Shown one piece after another: positions 9,336-62,477 of a stretch of 64,000 bases of DNA (position 1 is the stretch's first letter; each line of letters starts with the position of its first letter). The stretch comes from Gaertneriomyces semiglobifer (Eukaryota > Chytridiomycota > Chytridiomycetes > Spizellomycetales > Spizellomycetaceae): NCBI GenBank assembly GCA_025558075.1, contig JAHLKF010000033.1:62001-126000 (forward strand), written 5' to 3'. The position numbers were made by a program, and so were the translations under genes. The notes below the pieces were generated by a model, which worked only from the letters and a program-made list of their open reading frames with translations, did no database searches and was not told where the DNA came from.

Positions 9336-11789
9336 ATGCCTGAAGACATTGAACGCCAGAGAATCGACCGTGCCCGCGAGGTGACCGCTGCTCTCAAAGG
9401 TTAGTTTGAAGCTTATCCCGAGCGCGCTACGCCCGTACGGGAGCGCTAATCCGGCTTTCGCTGTCGAGCAGAAGGCAAGATGCCAACCACAGCTCAAGCC
9501 GTTGGAGGTATTGAGAAGGTTGAACGCGAAGCAACCCTTGCTGAGGTATCGCAAGATATGAGCTCAACGGGGAAGAAGGTAGGCTACGCACCATATAGTT
9601 TACCATGCTTCCTTAAAAGTAACACGGAATTGCAGGTATTAATCGACACTGAGCGTCTGTTGCACGACACCAAGAAGGTCATGGCCCAGACCATGCCCAA
9701 CAACGAATTACAGAACGCCTTGTACTATGGAGGTCGCGCTGCAAGCAGTACGTCAGGATCTCAGGCCGATCTTTCCGGTGCCGCCGACCAACTCGTACAA
9801 GCCGGTGCCAAGGCCGCACAGCTCACCAAAATCATCATCACCTCTCCTGAATTCCGCACATTACTAAACGATATGAGCGCTATTGCTCAAGATATTCTTC
9901 GCACCAACACAATAGAAGCAAGTGATGAACTCGCAAACGACCCTAATGCGCCTGATCAAGTCAAGCAGGCCGCAGCTAGGACGCGAGACACTATTCAAAC
10001 CAAAGGTCCCGAAGGTGCAACCCGCGAAGGTCAAGCGCAAATGCAAGCTACTGCTCAGGAAGGGCGTCAGCGTCTCGAGGAAGAGAAGCAGCGCGCCGCA
10101 CAGGAGTACAATGTGCGATCGCAACAAGCCCAGGAAACCGGACGCGCCACCCAACGGACCGCCGGCGACTCTTTAGCCGGCGGAGCATCACTGAGGGACA
10201 CAACCAAGAATATCGTCGACGTAGTGGCTGACCGCGCAGAGCAGTATCTACCTAATGAAGTGGTAGACCGTACGTCGGGAGCAATCCGTGAGCAAGGTGC
10301 CAAATTGCACACTGGAGAGGTTAGCACTCAGGACTACAAGCAGCAAGGCGTAGCCAAGAAGAACGAGTTGATGAACCAAGGTCGTGCCGCAATGGATTCT
10401 GCCACAGCTCAACTTCGTGATCCGAACTCTCAAGTCAGACAGACCGGCGAACGCGTCGCTCGCAAGCTGGCCGATTTGCCTGAAGAGCGCCGCCAAGAAA
10501 TCATCACGAGAATTCGAAACGTTGCCCGTACTATCCAGTCCAAGCCCGAGTTCCAGAGCGGAATTTCGGAATTGTTCGACATCGTCGCCCCGCTCGCATG
10601 GCAAGCCAAGGAATCTGCAGCTACCACGCTCAACAAAGCGGCTGAAGCCCCAACTGATCCGAATCAGATCCAAGCGTCTCGTGACGCGCGCATTGCTATC
10701 TCCAACGCAAAGCAGCTCCTCGAGAACTTTGCCAGGGGACGCCCGCTTGACCCCCTCATTGAAACCATTCGCGATTTTGCCGCGCAAGCGCGTGATGACG
10801 AGGCTCTTCGTTTGTACTGGAGGGACCTTGGTAACTTCTTGCAGCGCATCATCAAGGAGACTGGCTACGCTGACAACACCAACTTCAATGCGGAGGCACG
10901 AAGCTTTATCGACCGTGGTCGTCAAGTCATGGACCAGTACAGCTACTATACCCAGAACCTATCGTACGAGGCCGGCATCTTCACCTCCGCTTTGTCTTCA
11001 AACAAAGCAACTCAAAAGGTCCAGGCTGATGCCAACACGCTGATCAACGACCTCTTCCTTGACGAGCGTGGTAAGCCAACATTCAAGCCGGAGCTTCTCC
11101 GTGACCTGGCCAAAGCAATTCCCAAAATTGCCGACAAACTTGCATACCTTCCAATTCCTCGCATTGATGTCGATGATGGCACCTACCACGTCGTATTCGA
11201 CAATATTATTCTTCACTCCACCATCCTCCCCAAGTATGTGCGCATTGTCACCGATACCACTGTCGATGCAACCAAGTCCGACCCCAACGAGCAACTCAAC
11301 AACTTCCTTCTCCTCGAGATTTCCAAAATCGAGGCTAGTGCGCGTGACATTGCCTGGTTGGTGAACAAGCACTCCGGTTTGATGAAGGTTGGAGACGTTG
11401 GTCTCGCCGACTTTGACATCAAGGGTGAAGGCCTGTCTATCCGCTTGAAGGTCATTCCAGGATCCGAAACGGGAGTTGCTGCGCCTTCGTCGAATGTGCA
11501 GGGACGCTTCCTCCACGCCGCAGATGTCAAGACCACATTGCACAACCTTGACCTGAGACTTCACGATTCTCGCCACGACTTCCTGTACAAGCTTGCCAAG
11601 CCTATCTTGCAAAGCCGTGCCAAGAAGCAGATTGAGAAGGCCATCAACGATGCCATTGCGGACCTGATATTTGCTTTGGATGAGAAGGTAGTTCAAGCAT
11701 CTACTGCTATGAGCACGACCGAGCCGGCTCTTGCCAAGGGTGTTCCAGAGTGGGGAAGCAAGTCTTTCACGCCGGCCAAGGAAGTTTAG
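9336..11789 (+). CDS. HAM1-like protein (fungal HAM1 N- and C-domains)
   Basis: Fungal protein resembling the HAM1-like N-terminal (formerly DUF5923) plus HAM1-like C-terminal architecture, thought to be related to lipid-binding BPI/SMP-type folds; cellular role not established. Exons 9336-9399, 9472-9578 and 9636-11789 give 774 aa. The middle (about residues 200-330) is a Gln/Glu/Arg-rich helical segment with repeated QAQ/EEKQRAAQEY patterns. The C-terminal 400 residues hold alternating helices and a beta-rich module (IPRIDVDDGTYHVVFDNI, then LHSTILPKYVRI). Intron 2 (9579-9635, 57 nt) is in frame and stop-free, so an intron-retained form adding 19 residues would still be translatable. AATAAA at 11835-11840 is a likely poly(A) signal. 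No signal peptide. Confidence 0.72.
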
Positions 11790-13860: not shown

Positions 13861-16800
13861 TCACTCAGCGTCTTCATTGAACGCTGGGCAAGAAATTTCC
13901 ACTCCATAGGCTTTCATCTGCTGCGCATGGTATGCTTGCTCTGCGCCGGGGTACACGGCAAAAACTTTCAAGTCGGGGGGACTGGATGCCATGTCGGGCA
14001 CAATCCGCACCCATAATTTTTGGAAAATCCCTATCGTCTGCGTAACGGTTGACTCCTTGTCCAGGGTACGACGTTTAGAAGCATTCGTCTTCTTCTCAGG
14101 TTTAGAGCCGCGCTTTGGGGTTGCGTTTTGGTTGGCTTGATTCAATGCGGTGGAATCCGCATCGGATGCGTCGTCATTTCTATTGCCATTTAGATCATTA
14201 ACGGCCACAGGCTCTCCATTCCCATCTTCTTGCTTCTTCCAATACACCCTCAAAGACTTGATCTCGGACTTTTCCTCTTCACATCCAATAACCTCCCCGA
14301 GATCAATGGAATCCTCAATCCACACCCGCTTCTCCAATCCATACTTATCAATGAGCACATCAAAACTCCTCGTTCCAATAGCATACACCACTGCCTCGGT
14401 AACCACGCCCGGCAGCACTTTTTCACCACTGTGCAACCTGCGTTGTTCGCACAATCGCGCAAGGTATGCACACAAGAATAACCGCTGACTGGCCTCTTGC
14501 GCCGTCTTACTGGCGTCCTTTCGGTCATTACACTGTTTGGCAATCTGCATCACCTCATCGCTTTCGTACAGATCTTCCACCTGTCCTGCTAACGCTACAT
14601 CCAGCATTCGGTGGACAATCACATCACAATACCGGCGAATCGGTGATGTGAAATGTGTGTAGAGAGGAACATTCAGCGCATAGTGATGCCATTTCGGGAT
14701 TTCTAACTTTCCGGTACAAAAGTACTTGGCGCGCTGCATCGGCTTGATACACAACTGCTGCAACACTGTACGTTTCTCCTCACCAATGGCGTTGAACGAC
14801 TGTTGAAGTGTGGACGACGTGGACGGATCGAGGGAATACCCAAGCTGGGCAGCGAATGTGATGAACTCGTCCATGACCTTTTCTTTTGGGGGTCGGTGAT
14901 TCCGTAGTAGCGCACTCTCCGGATAGTGTTTAGCGATCTTGGCAGCTACTGCCATGTTGGCCAACAACATGAACTCCTCGATCAGCCGATTACTATCCTT
15001 CAGTTCATATACGCCTGTGTCGACAGGGTTTCCGTAATCATCAATAGCAAACCAAAGCTTTGGACTGTTCATCGACAAAGCGCCCTGATCGAACCGACGT
15101 TGTCGCATCATCTTACTGAACTCGTACAGTCTCAGGGTATCACTCTTAATATCTTCGATGTCAGTCGTACCATACAGCTCGACTTCTGGCAGCCCGCTCC
15201 AATCAGAGTTCTCAATCAACCGTTGAGCATGGTCGTAACTCAGCTTGGCACACGATCGGATGATGCTTCTCCCAAACCACGGAGTTTCCAGTATCTGCGC
15301 TCGCGCATCCATCTTCCACATCACCGAAAACGCCAACCTTTCCACACCAGGGTTCAAACTACACAAGTCCTCACACAACGTCCTCGGAAGCATCGGAATG
15401 GCTTTCTGCACCAAATAAATAGTCGTCGCACGATGTCTCGCTTCCTTATCCAGTGCCGAACCGGCCGGGACAAAGTATGACACATCAGCAATGTGCACAC
15501 CCACTTCAAACGTCCCATCCGGCAGCGGCTTGACGGATACTGCATCGTCCAAATCGCGTGCGGTTTGCGGGTCAATGGAAAAGATGCGTTCCTCTCGCAG
15601 ATCTCGCCGCTTGACGTACTCTTCTGCTGGAATCTTCCATGGGATTTCTGGTAAGCAAGCCAGAACCTCATCCGAAAATTCGTTCCAGTCAATTCCCGCA
15701 TCAGTTAAAAGTGCTTCTGTTTCAATAGGAATTTCACCCATCTGTCCTAGTGTCCCAGTAACAACTCCGAACGGATGTTGAGAAGTGGCGGGCCATTTAC
15801 CACTGGTGGCTTTAAACAAGATCCTAGAGTAAGCTACTGGATCTTGCAGAAACTCTTTGGGAACGTGTTCGACCGGAATCGCAATCAACGGGACTCTTTT
15901 ATCCGTCGGCTTAAACCAGATGATGGTCGGAGCACGGTCGCGGTTCCCGTTGCCACTTGCACTGGTTCCAGATCCGTTCCAATTGCGTCGCCGGTCTCCA
16001 ACTGATCCTTGTAATGTACCGGCAAACGACCGATTCTGGCCGCGTTCAATCACAGCCACGACCTTGCCATAAATGCGCTTCTCCTCGGCCGCCTTTTCAA
16101 CGGGATTCACAGGCTCATCTTCCTCATCCTCCTCATCTTCGTCATCTTCCATAGCCGTATCCGTCACATCACACTTGGCCTGTCGGGCATCACTCTGTTG
16201 CTTCTTCTTCTCTCGTCGAAAGCGTTCGCCTTCCATGGACATCATCAACTCTGTACCCTCCAGTAATCTGACGGCAACAACATCGCCTTCAAAAGCTCTA
16301 TTCCGGTATTTGGTGCCGGAAATATAAATATCCTGACCACTGTCGTCCGCTGTAATGTAAGCATCATTTCGATTACGTCTGCTGATTCGTACCGAGCCCT
16401 GCTTCAATGTTCCGTTCGCCAGGCCATCCTTCACTTCTTCAAATGACATATACTCCTCGTACAGCAACGCACGCGGTGTGCGTGGTGTGTTGGGCGTTCC
16501 ATTTGCAGTATCTCTAGCAGGAGTCCATAAACGCTTACCCAGTTGGGCAGAGCTATCCCCCGTACCAGAGCCAGGCCTTCTTTGCCTCCAGTCACCTCCA
16601 GATTGACCACGACCTTGCTGCGGTGTATGCTGTCCCACCGGCGCACTCGCAGGGCGGTGGTCTTGATTCTGATGTTGCTGTCGCCATGAGCCAACGGGTG
16701 TCGGTGTGCTTTCCTTCACGGACTTAGCCTGATACTGTCGCGATTGGGAACCCGCATACTCCGATAGGTGATGGCTTCGATGATCGGCCGAGCCGCGTCG

Positions 16801-17868
16801 ACCCGACCTAGGCGTGCGTGGTGCGCGAGAGTGTGAATCCTGATGCCGTTGCGTACGCTCCATCTGGTAGTCACCGTAACCCTCTGGCTTGCCGAATGCC
16901 GCAAATGACTTGGCCTTGCGTACCTCATGTCGACTGTGCAATGATTTTCCTGAAGGAGTAGGGTGCATCATTTGTTCAAAGTCCACTACTTCCTCTTCAC
17001 CCTCCGATTCCTTCTTTGCTTTCCTAGCACTGGTCGACGCACTCTGATCTGATAAACTCAAAGTCGCCAATTCCTTCATCACACGGTTGATGCGATCTAC
17101 CACCGCACCATTTTGCCGACTATGGCCTCTATCCTTCTTCCCACTCTTTCCACCCCAGGTGTCCGGTGCATTTTGGGTTATTGGTTGGGGTATCACGCGA
17201 TTCTCCTCCGCTTTTCCTGCAGCGGATGACTGAGGGCCAGTAGAAACCTGCTTGGCATCACGACGAATGGCGCCCACTATGTCCGCTTTCACCGGTTTCG
17301 GTATCACCCGAGCCTGCTCCTTGTTCTTTCCTTTAGCCGACTCCACAGGCAGCGTATTCCCCGCAAGAGATGTCGGATGAGCCCCGGGGCTCCGTGACAC
17401 TGAAATCACCAGACCAGATGGAAGTGTTCTTGTTTCCTGATCGTCCTTGTCCTTATCAGCGCCCTTTCCTGTCTGCATCTTTGCCTCTGCCTTGTCCATG
17501 CTATTTATCTTTTGCGGCTTACGTTTCGTACGTGTAGTAGTTGTAGCGTCCCCAAAAACACTCGATGCATTTGTCACAGCGTCGGCTACCGCTTCCTTAG
17601 ATTCCTGTGCCGCCGGCCCGTTTCCTTGCTCACGCAGCTGCTTCGACCGCTTCCGTCGTACCACCTTGGGTTGCTGGCTCTCCTTCTGCTCGCTCACATC
17701 CTCCCCAACATTCCTCATCTTCTTTGCGTCACCCTCGGTTGGCGGGACAATTACCACCGACTTGCTCTTCTTCTTCTTCTGCCCTTTTGCTACAGTCCCG
17801 ACCATACCACCTTCCACACCGTCTACTCCTGTCCGGTTCCCATTCTCAAAGTGTGGATCATCGTCCAT
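13861..17868 (-). CDS. Dis3L2/Ssd1-type RNase II family protein
   Basis: Single-exon gene, 1335 aa. Exoribonuclease family RNB, Dis3L2/Ssd1 branch: no PIN domain. Order: a disordered N-terminus of about 470 residues rich in Lys, Gln, Ser and Gly; cold-shock-like domains beginning near residue 475 (MSFEEVKDGL ... DAYITADDSGQDIYI); an acidic insertion (EDDEDEEDEEDE) near 570; the RNB domain from about 760; and an S1-like domain near 1130-1220. The RNB active-site loop reads SIDPQTARDLDDAV with all four aspartates present, so catalysis looks possible, unlike budding-yeast Ssd1. The long N-terminus suggests mRNA-binding or granule regulation. The C-terminus ends EISCPAFNEDAE. Confidence 0.85.
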   Translation of the reverse strand: MDDDPHFENGNRTGVDGVEGGMVGTVAKGQKKKKSKSVVIVPPTEGDAKKMRNVGEDVSEQKESQQPKVVRRKRSKQLREQGNGPAAQESKEAVADAVTNASSVFGDATTTTRTKRKPQKINSMDKAEAKMQTGKGADKDKDDQETRTLPSGLVISVSRSPGAHPTSLAGNTLPVESAKGKNKEQARVIPKPVKADIVGAIRRDAKQVSTGPQSSAAGKAEENRVIPQPITQNAPDTWGGKSGKKDRGHSRQNGAVVDRINRVMKELATLSLSDQSASTSARKAKKESEGEEEVVDFEQMMHPTPSGKSLHSRHEVRKAKSFAAFGKPEGYGDYQMERTQRHQDSHSRAPRTPRSGRRGSADHRSHHLSEYAGSQSRQYQAKSVKESTPTPVGSWRQQHQNQDHRPASAPVGQHTPQQGRGQSGGDWRQRRPGSGTGDSSAQLGKRLWTPARDTANGTPNTPRTPRALLYEEYMSFEEVKDGLANGTLKQGSVRISRRNRNDAYITADDSGQDIYISGTKYRNRAFEGDVVAVRLLEGTELMMSMEGERFRREKKKQQSDARQAKCDVTDTAMEDDEDEEDEEDEPVNPVEKAAEEKRIYGKVVAVIERGQNRSFAGTLQGSVGDRRRNWNGSGTSASGNGNRDRAPTIIWFKPTDKRVPLIAIPVEHVPKEFLQDPVAYSRILFKATSGKWPATSQHPFGVVTGTLGQMGEIPIETEALLTDAGIDWNEFSDEVLACLPEIPWKIPAEEYVKRRDLREERIFSIDPQTARDLDDAVSVKPLPDGTFEVGVHIADVSYFVPAGSALDKEARHRATTIYLVQKAIPMLPRTLCEDLCSLNPGVERLAFSVMWKMDARAQILETPWFGRSIIRSCAKLSYDHAQRLIENSDWSGLPEVELYGTTDIEDIKSDTLRLYEFSKMMRQRRFDQGALSMNSPKLWFAIDDYGNPVDTGVYELKDSNRLIEEFMLLANMAVAAKIAKHYPESALLRNHRPPKEKVMDEFITFAAQLGYSLDPSTSSTLQQSFNAIGEEKRTVLQQLCIKPMQRAKYFCTGKLEIPKWHHYALNVPLYTHFTSPIRRYCDVIVHRMLDVALAGQVEDLYESDEVMQIAKQCNDRKDASKTAQEASQRLFLCAYLARLCEQRRLHSGEKVLPGVVTEAVVYAIGTRSFDVLIDKYGLEKRVWIEDSIDLGEVIGCEEEKSEIKSLRVYWKKQEDGNGEPVAVNDLNGNRNDDASDADSTALNQANQNATPKRGSKPEKKTNASKRRTLDKESTVTQTIGIFQKLWVRIVPDMASSPPDLKVFAVYPGAEQAYHAQQMKAYGVEISCPAFNEDAE

Positions 17869-26356: not shown

Positions 26357-28030
26357 TCACATCATCGTCTCCATGGAAGCCACCGCCGCCGCCGCCGGTC
26401 CATTTCCAATCTGTTGCGATTGCTGATGTTGCGCATGATGTTGATGATGTGGATGATGCTCCGCCTCACCAGGCTGTTGTACTACATGGGTCATGGGCTG
26501 CTGCTGCTGTTGCTGCGGACTCACTACATTGACACTCTCGTCCTGCTGTCCACCACTCGTCTCTCCCGCATCCTCGTCATCATCGCCCGGTACACCGTCT
26601 CCGTCCCTAAAGAACGAGCTCGCACCCATCCGTAGCCGTTCGTTGCACACCATGTCCCACGTCTGGTGCAGAAAGAACAAGCCCTTCATTCGTGCTTCTT
26701 CGATGTTCCCTGACGTTTCTTCCACGAGCAGCGTGTTGAGGTACTCGTGCAGCTTGTCGTGGAGGCGCGCCTCTTTGCGGAGGGACTTGGGTGCGCGCGG
26801 TGCACCGAGGGTCGTGGGCGGGAATTTGCGTTTGAGCGGGTTGCTGGATGTGTGGGTGGCAGCGGTGGCGCTGGCGGCGGCCGCGGCCGCGGCAGTAGCG
26901 GGATCATATAAATGGGCAGGTAAAGGAAGGTGAAGACCGTGCGGCCCGACAGCAAACTGCATCGGGGTGCCGCCCGGTGTGGGCGTTGCGGTCATCACAC
27001 CGGGGTCTTCCTTCACGTCGCCCAAAGAAGGTTGTTTGGCAAACTTGCCCTTGTGCAATTGATACTGATATTCCTGGATCGTGGTGGCTTCCTCTTTCGG
27101 ATCCGGCTCGCCTTCGCCCAACATAAAGACAGTTTGGGCGAACCGCGGATGGATACGGTATTCGTAGAACTTGCGTCCTTTGGGTTTCCCTCGTCCGGAC
27201 TCGGCGCCCTTGGTTCCAGCACGCGAACACACGCGGTGGGGCTTGCGGTTTTCGCACCGTTCAGCGTCCGGGTCACCTACAGGATGCGTCGCCTCGGGAA
27301 GATCCGCAGGCAAATCCTTGAGCTCACGGTTCCACGTTCCAACGGCCGTACGGAACTGGTTTCGCAAGGTTTCTTGGGTATTTACGAACCCATAATGTTC
27401 AAACATTTGTTGGCAGTCGGAAGAGTGCGTCCATGCGTTGTGCACCTTGGCGAATATCCACAGCAACCGGCTGGATTGGATCGATTTTTCTTTGGAGCTG
27501 AGTGCCGAATGGTTCACTTTTAGGTGGTATGTGCCCTGTGGAAGCGGCTGAGGCTGTGACTGCTGCGGTGCAAGACCTCGTGTCATCCCTGGGGTAGGAG
27601 GTAATTGGGCGGCGGCGGCTTGTTGAGCTTCTTGAGCGAGTTGAGCAATCTGATGGTGTGAAGGTGTTTGTGGCAAGGCTGGATGCGCGGAGAGCTGCGC
27701 ATGTTGATGTGGGTGTTGTGAGTGCTGCGGATGTGGGGGTAGAGCCGAGGGTTGTGGAGATGCCGTGGGTTGTGGCGGAAGCGGTGAATGAATTTGTTGT
27801 TGTTGCTGCACCTGCTGCTGCTGTTGTTGCTGCTGTACATGTACTTGTTGTTGTTGTTGTTGGTGCTGCTGTTGCTGTTGTTGTTGTTGTTGCTGACGTT
27901 GAGCAGCCAAGGCCTGATGAAGAGTGGGTTGAACGGAACCCGTGGCAGCTAATGCCGGATTATTGATGAGCAATGCTTGCTGCTCGTTGATCTGGCACGC
28001 CGTGGCGGCGAGTTGCTCCAACGAGTCCAT
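26357..28030 (-). CDS. PolyQ nuclear-type protein, family not recognised
   Basis: Single exon, 557 aa. The N-terminal third is dominated by polyQ/QH/QV runs (residues about 40-100). The middle holds a conserved-looking block: YHLKVNHSALSSKEK, SRLLWIFAKVHNAWTHSS, CQQMFEHYGFVNTQETLRNQ, TAVGTWNRELKDLP, then GRKFYEYRIHPRFAQTVFML. The C-terminus has a polyAla stretch, an LKRKFPPT-type basic patch, a helix (EARLHDKLHEYLNTLLVEE) and more polyQ/His. The mix of polyQ and a compact basic core suggests a transcription cofactor or DNA-binding protein, but I do not recognise the domain. The ATG at 28030 begins MDSLEQLAATACQINE. Confidence 0.7.
   Translation of the reverse strand: MDSLEQLAATACQINEQQALLINNPALAATGSVQPTLHQALAAQRQQQQQQQQQQHQQQQQQVHVQQQQQQQQVQQQQQIHSPLPPQPTASPQPSALPPHPQHSQHPHQHAQLSAHPALPQTPSHHQIAQLAQEAQQAAAAQLPPTPGMTRGLAPQQSQPQPLPQGTYHLKVNHSALSSKEKSIQSSRLLWIFAKVHNAWTHSSDCQQMFEHYGFVNTQETLRNQFRTAVGTWNRELKDLPADLPEATHPVGDPDAERCENRKPHRVCSRAGTKGAESGRGKPKGRKFYEYRIHPRFAQTVFMLGEGEPDPKEEATTIQEYQYQLHKGKFAKQPSLGDVKEDPGVMTATPTPGGTPMQFAVGPHGLHLPLPAHLYDPATAAAAAAASATAATHTSSNPLKRKFPPTTLGAPRAPKSLRKEARLHDKLHEYLNTLLVEETSGNIEEARMKGLFFLHQTWDMVCNERLRMGASSFFRDGDGVPGDDDEDAGETSGGQQDESVNVVSPQQQQQQPMTHVVQQPGEAEHHPHHQHHAQHQQSQQIGNGPAAAAVASMETMM
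27794..27897. repeat. CAG/CAA polyglutamine tract
   Basis: Near-continuous (CAA/CAG) codons on the minus strand, broken by a few His and Val codons, encoding the main polyQ block of the polyQ protein. Likely length-variable between strains. Confidence 0.85.
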
Positions 28031-57893: not shown

Positions 57894-59133
57894 CAGTTAC
57901 CCATACATACCGTTGTTAAATTTAATTCATGTACAAATATACGAGAGACTGTAAAGCAAATCTTTGATCGACCATGATCGGAAACTAGTTGTCATCCTTA
58001 ACGTTTAAGCATTCGCGTCCGCGTTGGTTTGGAGAGTTTTGAATGATGCTCTTCATCAGACTGCAGCGGCTGTTTTCATCCTTGAACAACACGAGATGGT
58101 ACGAGCGAACAACGCAGGTTGCTGGACTTTTTTTCGTGGGATCTCGCTGGCGGCCCTGAGAGTCTATGTTTGTTTCTGTTCCTCAGCAGATGCGAAGCAC
58201 TCAGTCAAACTCTCGAGCGTGCACAATCTGTTTGGAGGTTCAACAGGCGTGATCCAAGTGTTTATCGGGGCCAAGCAGTCAACCGTGCTGCCACGCTTAA
58301 ACGCTTAAAACGCTTCCATAAAAGAGACAGTTACGTTTCGTGGAACAGTTCTTCGCTATACCTCGACGCCAACATCGTCGTAACCCCCCGTGTTGCCCAC
58401 CACATCGATGACATCGACGTCCGACACAGCCATGTGTTTAAGCAAGGATCTTGAGTAATGCCGAGTTCTTGGTTAGTAGTATTGGGACGGAGCAGGCAAT
58501 AGATGAACCCGTGATCCATTTTTGGAAGCACCTAAGCTTTCAAGTTTTGCTTTTCCTGGCCATAGTGATGATTGAGTGTAAAAATGGTGTCGTCCACTGA
58601 ATATGCTGTTGTTGCAAAAAGGAAGCCTGTTGTACAGCAACAATGGACGTCTCTGATTGTGCGCGATCGACCGAGCTCGCTTCACAATGATTGCTTTGGA
58701 CTTGGTCGTGGGTAAACAATTCGTGAAGTTTTAGCGCCAGTCTGCAGAAACTTCTCACTAACTCTGCTGAATGGACACGATGTGAATTTGCTCTGGAGAT
58801 ACTGTCCATCTTTGACAGTATTACTTATTAACAGGGAACAAAAATCAAGTGCTCATCGTCCCAGTCAACTCGGGATGAGCTGTCAATTTGGGACCCGCTG
58901 AACCGCGATTTTCCCAAGCATCCACATAGCGGTATTACTTACAGCTTCAGAAAGTTTGCCAGGCATTTTAAAATTTGTAATTTGAAGTCAAAATTAGGTT
59001 GGTCGGTGTGCCCGGGAATATCCCCTTCGCGGCGTTCCATTTCCGTAAATAGAGTGGGTTCTCACATGCGATTATTTTGGGAATGCTGAACTATAAATAC
59101 ACGCTGTTGTGTGAAAATAGACTTGAGAAATCA
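57894..59133. other. Intergenic region with an inverted repeat copy
   Basis: 1.2 kb without a recognised gene. The 19 bases at 58603-58621 are the reverse complement of the CTTTTTGCAACAACA-type motif repeated further downstream (59134-59450). Confidence 0.4.
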
Positions 59134-59560
59134 CTTTTTGCAACAACAAACTGTTCCGGTTGGAATTGGGACGACACCTTCAAAATCCTCTTCAGAACAT
59201 GAAACATTATTCGTTTTTACAACAGCAGCATGTTCCGATGAACGACATCTTCGGAACATGCAGCATTATTCCTTTTTGCAACAAGAGCATATTCCGGACG
59301 GCACCTTCAGAACGTTCATTCATGGCACTATGTGGCCCTTTCAAAGGCAGCGAGAGTCGCTGAAGTTTTACAACAACAGCATGCTCCAATGAACGACACC
59401 TTCAGAACATGCAGCATGATTTCTTTTTGCAACAACACCATGTTCCGGTTGGAAGACGCGTTGAGAACACGCAACATTATTCCTGGACGGCACCTTCAGA
59501 ACATTCATTCATGGCACTAGGTGGCCGTTTCAAAGACAGCGAGAGTCGCTGAAGTGCGAA
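59134..59560. repeat. Tandem imperfect repeats upstream of the nuclease-repeat gene
   Basis: Several copies of a unit built from TTTTTGCAACAACA, GCATGTTCCG, ATGAACGACACCTTC and AGAACATGCAGCATTATTC. A larger duplication of about 188 bp is visible: GGACGGCACCTTCAGAAC at 59296 and 59484, and AGCGAGAGTCGCTGAAG at the end of each copy. GCATGTTCCGA (59228-59238) and its reverse complement (59251-59261) form a hairpin. Ends directly before the TATA box of the next gene. Confidence 0.75.
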
Positions 59561-59687: not shown

Positions 59688-62477
59688 ATGACAGTGGTTT
59701 CTGGGCTTCGCAACCGCGAACCGCTTCACGTTAAACGAAGCGAGGCGCGAAAGTTCTCGTCCTGCGCTAATACCCAGTTTGAAATTAAGGTTGAAGACTA
59801 TGTTGATGAAATCCTGGCGAAATGCGAGGGTTTTCACGCCGAAGCGCAGAGAACCTTACCTGAGACGGGGTGTAGGCCAGATATTGTTGTTCGGAACAAT
59901 CGCAGTGGTAAAGCTACCGTTGTCATCGACGCCAAAAACTACACGGGAAACCTCCCACCTGGGGAAGTGCACAAGCTGAGCAAGGATATGCGGGCCTGCA
60001 GTGCTAAATATGGAGTGCTTTACATTGCCTGCGAGACAACCATGTCATTGAACACAATGGACCTTGCAAGAGAATTTCACATCGAGGTTGTACGCGATGG
60101 CCGTGGCAGCAAGCAAGCGTTGACTCAAATAATCATGAAGACAGGCCCCAAGACAGATCCGAAGATAGAATCAAATAACGATCTCAATTGCGCAGCCTCG
60201 GTACCGCTCACGAAGAACGGAATCCCCGATATGCGCTTCGCTGTCAACAAGGCCGCCAAGGAGGAGTCGCGCGGACCATCCGATGCTACGGCCTCGGTGC
60301 CTCTTAAGAAGGACGGGACCCCAGATAAGCGCTTTGCTGTCAACAAGGCCGCCAAGGAGGAGTCGCGCGGACCATCCGATGCTACGGTCTCGGTGCCTCT
60401 TAAGAAGGACGGGACCCCAGATATGCGCTTTGCCGTCAACAAAGCCGCCAAGGAGGGGTTACGCGGACCATCCGATACTACCGAGGCCTCGGGGCCTCTT
60501 AAGAAGGACGGAGCTCCTGATATGCGCTTTGCCGTCAACAAAGTTGTCTACCAGGAATTGAGCAATCATTCTTCGTATACCACATATGTCCCCGAACGGC
60601 AGCAAATTACCGGACCGCTCAAAAAGGACGGGACCCCAGATATGCGCTTTGCCGTCAACAAGGCCGCCAAGGAGGAGTCGCGCGGACCATCCGATGCTAC
60701 GGCCTCGGTGCCTCTTAAGAAGGACGGGACCCCAGATAAGCGCTTTGCTGTCAACAAGGCCGCCAAGGAGGAGTCGCGCGGACCATCCGATGTTACGGCC
60801 TCGGTGCCACTTAAGAAGGACGGGACCCCAGATATGCGCTTTGCCGTCAACAAGGCCGCCAAGGAGGAGTCGCGCGGACCATCCGATGCTACGGCCTCGG
60901 TGCCTCTTAAGAAGGACGGGACCCCAGATATGCGCTTTGCCGTCAACAAAGCCGCCAAGGAGGGGTTACGCGGACCATCCGATACTACCGAGGCCTCGGG
61001 GCCTCTTAAGAAGGACGGAGCTCCTGATATGCGCTTTGCCGTCAACAAAGTTGTCTACCAGGAATTGAGCAATCATTCTTCGTATACCACATATGTCCCC
61101 GAACGGCAGCAAATTACCGGACCGCTCAAAAAGGACGGGACCCCAGATATGCGCTTTGCCGTCAACAAGGCCGCCAAGGAGGAGTCGCGCGGACCATCCG
61201 ATGCTACGGCCTCGGTGCCTCTTAAGAAGGACGGGACCCCAGATAAGCGCTTTGCTGTCAACAAGGCCGCCAAGGAGGAGTCGCGCGGACCATCCGATGT
61301 TACGGCCTCGGTGCCACTTAAGAAGGACGGGACCCCAGATATGCGCTTTGCCGTCAACAAGGCCGCCAAGGAGGAGTCGCGCGGACCATCCGATGCTACG
61401 GCCTCGGTGCCTCTTAAGAAGGACGGGACCCCAGATATGCGCTTTGCCGTCAACAAGGCCGCCAAGGAGGAGTCGCGCGGACCATCCGATGCTACGGCCT
61501 CGGTGCCTCTTAAGAAGGACGGGACCCCAGATATGCGCTTTGCCGTCAACAAAGCCGCCAAGGAGGGGTTACGCGGACCATCCGATACTACCGAGGCCTC
61601 GGGGCCTCTTAAGAAGGACGGAGCTCCTGATATGCGCTTTGCCGTCAACAAAGTTGTCTACCAGGAATTGAGCAATCATTCTTCGTATACCACATATGTC
61701 CCCGAACGGCAGCAAATTACCGGACCGCTCAAAAAGGACGGGACCCCAGATATGCGCTTTGCCGTCAACAAGGCCGCCAAGGAGGAGTCGCGCGGACCAT
61801 CCGATGCTACGGCCTCGGTGCCTCTTAAGAAGGACGGGACCCCAGATAAGCGCTTTGCTGTCAACAAGGCCGCCAAGGAGGAGTCGCGCGGACCATCCGA
61901 TGTTACGGCCTCGGTGCCACTTAAGAAGGACGGGACCCCAGATATGCGCTTTGCCGTCAACAAGGCCGCCAAGGAGGAGTCGCGCGGACCATCCGATGCT
62001 ACGGCCTCGGTGCCTCTTAAGAAGGACGGGACCCCAGATATGCGCTTTGCCGTCAACAAGGCCGCCAAGGAGGAGTCGCGCGGACCATCCGATGCTACGG
62101 CCTCGGTGCCTCTTAAGAAGGACGGGACCCCAGATATGCGCTTTGCCGTCAACAAAGCCGCCAAGGAGGGGTTACGCGGACCATCCGATACTACCGAGGC
62201 CTCGGGGCCTCTTAAGAAGGACGGAGCTCCTGATATGCGCTTTGCCGTCAACAAAGTTGTCTACCAGGAATTGAGCAATCATTCTTCGTATACCACATAT
62301 GTCCCCGAACGGCAGCAAATTACCGGACCGCTCAAAAAGGACGGAACTCCTGATATGCGCTTTGCAGCAAACAAAGGTGCTTGCAGCGCTGAATATTCCA
62401 CGTCAAGCGTTCCTAGAGTAAGGGGACCATTGAAGAAAGACGGTACACCGGACATGCGATACAAGGCAAACTGGTAA
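59688..62477 (+). CDS. PD-(D/E)XK nuclease-like domain fused to 23 PDMR repeats
   Basis: Intronless, 929 aa. The N-terminal 155 residues look like a restriction-endonuclease fold: helix FEIKVEDYVDEILAKCEGF, then motif II RPDIVV (Asp65) and motif III VVIDAKNYTG (Asp81-x-Lys83), followed by a helix (EVHKLSKDMRACSAKYGVLY) and strand. This matches the PD-(D/E)XK signature with D-x-K. From residue 174 to the end come 23 repeats of about 32 residues with the core L-K-K-D-G-T-P-D-M-R-F-A-V-N-K and a variable linker. The last copy ends PDMRYKANW. I recall similar DG-x-PDMR-[FY] repeats in protist and large-DNA-virus proteins, but cannot verify this here. No signal peptide. The enzyme target is unknown; a selfish-element, defence or effector role are all possible. 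Confidence 0.78.
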   Translation: MTVVSGLRNREPLHVKRSEARKFSSCANTQFEIKVEDYVDEILAKCEGFHAEAQRTLPETGCRPDIVVRNNRSGKATVVIDAKNYTGNLPPGEVHKLSKDMRACSAKYGVLYIACETTMSLNTMDLAREFHIEVVRDGRGSKQALTQIIMKTGPKTDPKIESNNDLNCAASVPLTKNGIPDMRFAVNKAAKEESRGPSDATASVPLKKDGTPDKRFAVNKAAKEESRGPSDATVSVPLKKDGTPDMRFAVNKAAKEGLRGPSDTTEASGPLKKDGAPDMRFAVNKVVYQELSNHSSYTTYVPERQQITGPLKKDGTPDMRFAVNKAAKEESRGPSDATASVPLKKDGTPDKRFAVNKAAKEESRGPSDVTASVPLKKDGTPDMRFAVNKAAKEESRGPSDATASVPLKKDGTPDMRFAVNKAAKEGLRGPSDTTEASGPLKKDGAPDMRFAVNKVVYQELSNHSSYTTYVPERQQITGPLKKDGTPDMRFAVNKAAKEESRGPSDATASVPLKKDGTPDKRFAVNKAAKEESRGPSDVTASVPLKKDGTPDMRFAVNKAAKEESRGPSDATASVPLKKDGTPDMRFAVNKAAKEESRGPSDATASVPLKKDGTPDMRFAVNKAAKEGLRGPSDTTEASGPLKKDGAPDMRFAVNKVVYQELSNHSSYTTYVPERQQITGPLKKDGTPDMRFAVNKAAKEESRGPSDATASVPLKKDGTPDKRFAVNKAAKEESRGPSDVTASVPLKKDGTPDMRFAVNKAAKEESRGPSDATASVPLKKDGTPDMRFAVNKAAKEESRGPSDATASVPLKKDGTPDMRFAVNKAAKEGLRGPSDTTEASGPLKKDGAPDMRFAVNKVVYQELSNHSSYTTYVPERQQITGPLKKDGTPDMRFAANKGACSAEYSTSSVPRVRGPLKKDGTPDMRYKANW
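60207..62474 (+). repeat. Higher-order 96-bp coding repeats
   Basis: 23 units, mostly 96 bp (32 codons), grouped in higher-order blocks each ending with a long variant (VVYQELSNHSSYTTYVPERQ). Block sizes in repeats are 4, 5, 6 and 6, then a two-repeat tail. The last full blocks are 507, 603 and 603 bp; they differ by one 96-bp unit and their translations are identical unit for unit, so duplication is very recent. Within a block, the Met-to-Lys change (PDKRF) always marks the same position. Confidence 0.93.

Follow-up and report, generated by a model that had tools for sequence, protein, structure and literature searches.

A predicted Mrr-like nuclease joined to a long array of an undescribed repeat in the chytrid Gaertneriomyces semiglobifer

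Results

Gene layout

The window analysed here, a stretch of 64,000 nucleotides, contains at 59688–62477, on the forward strand, an open reading frame that runs from ATG to TAA without an internal stop and encodes 929 amino acids. A PD-(D/E)XK-type domain (D65, D81-x-K83) comes first and is followed by 23 KKDGTPDMRFAVNK-type repeats, here termed PDMR repeats. An earlier note on this DNA had described one frame joining such a domain to 23 repeats, and both the 929-residue frame and a count by script bear this out. The same note knew of no characterised fungal counterpart, and the searches made here turned up no characterised protein of this architecture either. Judged from its sequence, the gene product is probably a nuclease of the Mrr-like kind that carries an undescribed repeat.

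The gene was also said to lack introns while its neighbours have many. The reading frame is indeed uninterrupted, but other long single-frame ORFs are frequent in the window and lie nearby, for example at 13861–17868 (1335 aa), 9480–11789 (769 aa) and 26357–28030 (557 aa), as taken from the ORF list rather than from gene models. The gene is therefore not clearly distinct from its neighbours in this respect. The GC content of the nuclease part equals that of the flanks, and that of the array is higher (0.55–0.61). The description of the region as repeat-bearing holds in part. Direct DNA repeats, possibly regulatory, lie upstream of the gene at 59134–59555 (forward strand), but they had no other copy in a genome search that skipped very common words. 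Taken together, the direct and inverted repeats just ahead of the gene (59134–59555 and 58599–58632) were unmatched elsewhere in the genome by that search.

Nuclease domain

The N-terminal domain comprises residues 1–171 (59688–60200, forward strand), a segment in which Pfam matches Mrr_cat (PF04471) to residues 35–118 with an E value of 6.9e-6 and 26.6 bits, where the cut-off is 21. In an alignment of the query with seven homologues, E32, E36, D65, D81 and K83 are among the columns invariant in 8/8 sequences, so the PD...(D/E)xK active site of the superfamily is conserved, and the earlier placing of D65, D81 and K83 was correct. On the forward strand, Glu36, an acidic residue with a putative role, is encoded at 59793–59795 and would lie in the first helix by reading of the sequence. 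Asp65, the aspartate of the PD motif, is encoded at 59880–59882, and Asp81-Ala82-Lys83, the (D/E)xK motif, at 59928–59936.

For comparison, 61 genomes were searched with Mrr_cat, giving 19 matches in 15 genomes. Seven of the 19 loci yielded no segment and one of the remaining 12 segments (L290, in the wrong frame) was left out, leaving 11 usable domains. Profile comparison by hhalign of the chytrid with the bacterial Mrr alignment gave a probability of 74 and an E value of 2.8e-5 over 108 columns (residues 35–147) with the repeat-free relative P0179 included, and 70 and 4.1e-5 without it. The controls stayed far lower, at 0.79 for the best of 30 column shuffles, 0.42 for a reversed alignment and 0.39 for an unrelated BTB alignment. 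The alignment is collinear and places D65 opposite the aspartate of GID in bacterial Mrr, and D81-A-K83 opposite QAK. A PDB sequence search found no chain similar to the query domain at E < 0.08. The PD-(D/E)XK reading of the earlier note is thus supported by the Pfam profile and the profile comparison, and the N-terminus may be placed in the Mrr-like PD-(D/E)XK fold family, an assignment that rests on sequence profiles.

The likeness to Mrr_cat lies in a score above the cut-off, the order of the motifs, the positions of the Asp and the (D/Q)xK, and an alignment extending over residues 35–147. The query differs in having RPD[IV]V and DAK where bacterial Mrr has GID and QAK. Moreover, Pfam finds no bacterial-type recognition domain in it; PDMR repeats follow instead.

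Relatives and copy number

Seven proteins share the layout: P0122 of Thoreauomyces humboldtii, P0123 of Fimicolochytrium jonesii, P0134, P0135, P0136 and P0138 of Geranomyces variabilis, and P0141 of G. michiganensis. They are 34–44% identical to the query and carry 1–4 recognisable repeats each, compared with 23 in the query. P0123 scores 29.5 bits to Mrr_cat, above the cut-off of 21, and the other six score 13.1–16.1, below it. Among the 177 proteins listed from the motif searches, a profile of the chytrid sequences picks out these seven only. A wider profile search returned six of the seven and P0179 (E 5.4e-4); the protein searches were non-exhaustive, this one scoring the 8000 candidates that shared most words and missing P0122.

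Within its own genome, the nuclease domain has one further match, at E 1.22, and a second copy of the gene was rejected as nothing beyond that match appeared. A genome search found no PDMR repeats outside the gene. The sole other Mrr_cat gene found in the genome is an RRG7 orthologue (L155:1836–2495, reverse strand; 67.5 bits to PF10356). Since relatives of the same layout occur in three named chytrid genera, the gene is a conserved chytrid one, with an array that was amplified recently in this genome.

The repeat array

Between residue 172 and the stop (60201–62474, forward strand), a script counted 23 motif copies, mostly 32–33 residues apart, with a spacing of 40 residues after each of four VVYQEL units. 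Tandem Repeats Finder gives scores up to 2026, so that the array is far beyond chance. The number 23 is the copy number in this assembly, in which the array length may be misassembled. A recently amplified higher-order repeat with a period of 603 bp occupies 60810–62344 on the forward strand, where 932 consecutive bp are identical at that offset (60810–61741 and 61413–62344). By script count and motif consensus, the last motif, GPLKKDGTPDMRYKANW, lies at 62424–62474 (forward strand). The repeat part is basic, with a net charge of +30 and a pI of 9.6.

The 15-codon motif core occurs in the gene as 8 distinct DNA variants. Pooled pairwise comparison gave a pS of 0.64, a pN of 0.093 and a pN/pS of 0.145, values drawn from small counts and non-independent pairs, some of them saturated at silent sites. 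The core is under purifying selection: the amino acids are kept while silent sites change.

Two Pfam families score above their cut-offs of 27 for the whole protein, PP1_bind (PF15276) at 43.7 bits and zf-C2H2_ZFAND2 (PF25403) at 28, and for either family no stretch passes singly even at E 10. As single stretches all fail, these whole-array scores represent sums over weak repeats. The PP1_bind, ZFAND2, SnoaL, spermine synthase and PHROG matches in the array were all rejected on this ground. Weak PP1_bind matches occur in P0130 and P0159 too, a precomputed one exists for P0178, and the family remains a weak hint for the array. Seven motif proteins gave nothing above cut-off in NCBIfam, the repeat had no PDB sequence match at E up to 10, and across Pfam, PHROG and NCBIfam no curated family resolved to the repeat. 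No mention of the motif was found in the main texts of 5.39 million open papers, and neither a name nor a function for it came to light.

The motif in other proteins

The GPLKKDGTPDMRYKANK-like motif recurs in BTB-BACK, amphioxus, oomycete, PARP, RBR, WWE, kinase, GIY-YIG, small Bacteroidota and phage-contig proteins. The searches matched 224 long proteins, of which 120 are listed, and 57 short ones. Over distinct copies, the seven chytrid homologues give the consensus GPLKKDGTPDMRYaANK and the 120 listed long proteins GPLKKDGTPDMRyaVNK. For 81 prokaryotic ORFs it is KKDGTPDMRYKENK, with the preceding G and P at 38% each. The prokaryotic and viral loci were chosen by DNA patterns fixing KDGTPDMR or KKDGTPD, and only their other residues count as independent likeness, for example the K (91%), N (96%) and K (86%) after the Y. 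The N, which is not one of the residues used for selection (G, P, D and R), is present in 79–100% of distinct copies. For the first pattern (KDGTPDMR), about 1.9 chance matches are expected in 257 Gb at equal base frequencies, and at least 120 stretches were seen.

BACK is present in 114 of the 120 listed long proteins (of 224). Where a protein of this set has a named source, it is a coral (Porites, Oculina) or Branchiostoma; among the named sources of short carriers are Atractiella rhizophila, Pythium insidiosum and Chryseobacterium. The Pfam domains on carriers are BTB, BACK, GIY-YIG, exonuclease-III-like, kinase, PARP, GYF, RBR and WWE, with RBR in P0155 and P0157, PARP in P0139, WWE in P0156 and a kinase in P0137. 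Several kinds of nuclease accompany the motif. The Mrr-like domain is found with it in the query and the seven chytrid proteins, GIY-YIG by Pfam in P0127, P0146 and P0151, and exonuclease-III-like domains by Pfam in P0131, P0133 and P0162. HNH was seen by motif pattern only, in P0175, P0176 and ORFs L080 and L097; P0175 reaches 12.6 bits with Pfam HNH, below the cut-off of 21.4, and P0176 has no Pfam match. The PBCV basic adaptor is just above its cut-off in P0154 and just under it in P0163 and P0164, and its motif pattern occurs in 4 of the 81 prokaryotic ORFs. Of the nuclease forms found among the carriers, the chytrid protein has the most repeats. The idea that amphioxus N-termini are degenerate copies of the nuclease was rejected, with an hhalign probability of 0.23 for P0098 and no listed match of P0024 to the sequence profile.

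The motif often stands at the end of the protein. In 100 of the 120 listed long proteins, a set with many near-copies, no more than 12 residues separate the last motif from the C-terminus. A strict C-terminal rule is contradicted by the corresponding counts of 3/8 chytrid-type proteins, 12/41 other short proteins (of which 39 have the motif) and 38/81 prokaryotic ORFs.

Of the at least 120 prokaryotic stretches, 80 are listed, and by title we take 79 of these to be Bacteroidota and one to be Bdellovibrionaceae. For the KKDGTPD pattern, too, the analysis covered the 80 listed of at least 120 stretches. The bacterial motif versions are lysine-rich, and a crude pattern recognises a signal-like N-terminus in 74 of the 81 ORFs. 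The loci L030–L109 encode small proteins, mostly of Bacteroidota, with signal-like N-termini, a few of which have an HNH-like or PBCV-adaptor-like C-terminus. A two-repeat query matched 4 of 80 drawn genomes at E up to 0.01, the centre genome itself being one of the four. A general Bacteroidota protein was rejected on this count, in which single motifs can be missed, and the distribution of the motif looks patchy.

In viral contigs, 18 frames carry the motif with the downstream N in 88 loci that were themselves chosen by motif DNA. Some frames end in the motif (for instance L172, L220, L230, L194, L223 and L226), and GPLKKDGTPDMR[YF]KAN[KR] occurs inside long proteins, as at L020:686, L022:1038 and L025:1035. 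Three phage-contig proteins tested against PHROG families at E 0.001 match none. Phage reference records were rejected as a source, the repeat and two phage-contig carriers being unmatched there.

Discussion

Proposed tethering of the nuclease by its repeats

Our preferred reading, put forward tentatively and at somewhat under even confidence, is that the gene encodes an active Mrr-like endonuclease whose multivalent basic PDMR array acts as an adaptor on DNA or nucleoprotein, for genome defence or DNA processing. In this model the Mrr-like PD-(D/E)XK part would be the cutting module for nucleic acid, and the short basic PDMR motifs behind it would form a multivalent adaptor that keeps the enzyme in contact with its substrate, which is most likely DNA or nucleoprotein. 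Such tethering would confine cutting to the target, an effect that basic adaptor modules appear to have on other enzymes, and the most likely use in chytrids would be genome defence or DNA processing. In support of this model, Mrr_cat scores above its cut-off in the query and P0123, and the profile match is collinear and stands clear of its controls. D65, D81 and K83 are invariant, and the seven homologues are 34–44% identical to the query. The array is basic with its core under purifying selection, and the motif occurs in the same proteins as nucleases of several types and as the PBCV basic adaptor.

Two viral systems supply the analogy for a tail held on its substrate. The putative DNA-binding proteins recovered with chlorovirus virion DNA include two kinases of PBCV-1 that have the basic adaptor domain (PMC3281028), and ascovirus P64, a protein of tandem short basic repeats, binds DNA and condenses it (PMC6163548). 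Like the PDMR motif, the PBCV basic adaptor (PF08789) is a short basic module added to varied proteins, some of which also carry PDMR motifs, but its sequence is different and the query has no PF08789 match. P64 resembles the array in its tandem short basic repeats; it differs in that these are Arg/Ser repeats, as quoted in PMC6163548, with no PDMR likeness visible by eye. The suggestion of the earlier note that the repeats act as a nucleic-acid scaffold or binding arm is a plausible hypothesis.

Certain findings weigh against the model. Six of the seven homologues fall under the Mrr_cat cut-off. DNA tethering is weakened by the preponderance of BACK in the listed long proteins, the RBR, PARP and kinase carriers and the signal-like N-termini, all of which suit a protein or envelope ligand as well, and by the PP1_bind score of the whole protein.

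The same findings lead to the foremost alternative, that PDMR is a protein-protein or nuclear-anchor adaptor and that the array brings the nuclease to a partner complex without contacting nucleic acid. The BTB-BACK, RBR, PARP, WWE and kinase carriers are linked less by a nucleic-acid substrate than by their setting in the cell, the brevity of the motif and its retained N suit a short linear motif, and PP1_bind passes for the whole array, though for no single stretch. Nevertheless, the several nuclease partners, the PBCV-adaptor partners and the lysine-rich bacterial versions speak against it, and we regard this alternative as a serious but less probable one.

A broader proposal concerns the motif itself. 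PDMR may be an undescribed targeting module of phages, Bacteroidota and eukaryotes, in which a near-same 17-residue peptide, often C-terminal, brings unrelated enzymes (nucleases, ubiquitin ligases, ADP-ribosyltransferases and kinases) to one very conserved ligand; we think this a real possibility, if short of probable. That fungi, animals, bacteria and phage contigs have proteins with much the same short peptide, for which neither a curated model nor a paper was found, points to a shared ligand that has gone unrecognised. The chytrid nuclease offers a tractable enzyme for finding that ligand, and if the array sets the cut target, the result could explain the motif in the other carriers too.

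Housekeeping, selfish and other origins as less likely alternatives

Alternatively, the protein could be a housekeeping nuclease of DNA repair or of an organelle, comparable to RRG7 of fungi, in which case the array would be a neutral tail. It is single-copy, conserved in related chytrids and Mrr-like, and a mitochondrial leader is possible. RRG7 (PF10356) is itself a fungal Mrr-related protein encoded in this genome; however, it is encoded there by a separate gene, and the query has no match to the family at E up to 10. The purifying selection on the motif core also indicates that the tail is not neutral. A housekeeping role of this kind is therefore improbable.

The earlier note took the gene to hint at horizontal origin or at a selfish or effector role. 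Horizontal origin is not favoured by the same-layout relatives in three chytrid genera or by the GC content of the nuclease part, although an old transfer from bacteria is possible. Against a selfish element stand the single copy, apart from the match at E 1.22, and the occurrence in four separate Geranomyces variabilis records and in three genera. These also bear on the particular case of a selfish killer like the Podospora SPOK proteins, acting through its nuclease domain. SPOK proteins need a restriction-type nuclease domain for killing and a putative kinase domain for resistance, and were reported in the nucleus (PMC9972908). The likeness, drawn from this description, is that both proteins are fungal and have a nuclease domain of restriction type; the array of the query was also amplified recently. 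The query, however, has no Pfam kinase match, and together with its single copy and the relatives in three other genera this makes a SPOK-like killer very improbable.

A secreted effector or a virus-derived gene is hardly credible: the prokaryotic motif proteins have signal-like N-termini and the motif occurs in phage-contig proteins, but by eye the chytrid proteins have no hydrophobic leader, and no viral contig encoding a nuclease relative came up in one scan. That scan gave 38 pattern matches, none of them confirmed by nuclease alignment, and on this ground a large DNA virus origin was rejected.

Further carriers of the array

Arrays resembling those of corals were also observed next to other enzymes. 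In P0113, P0127 and P0149, PDMR arrays of this kind are joined to GIY-YIG domains (by Pfam only in P0127), and in P0131, P0133 and P0162 to exonuclease-III-like domains. By eye, these GIY-YIG and exonuclease-III-like domains resemble retroelement endonucleases, and in P0127 and the three exonuclease-like proteins the pairing with the motif may be accidental. P0156, which combines WWE with PDMR repeats, and its shorter relative P0128 have in common a stretch that lacks a Pfam match and appears ADP-ribosyltransferase-like by eye.
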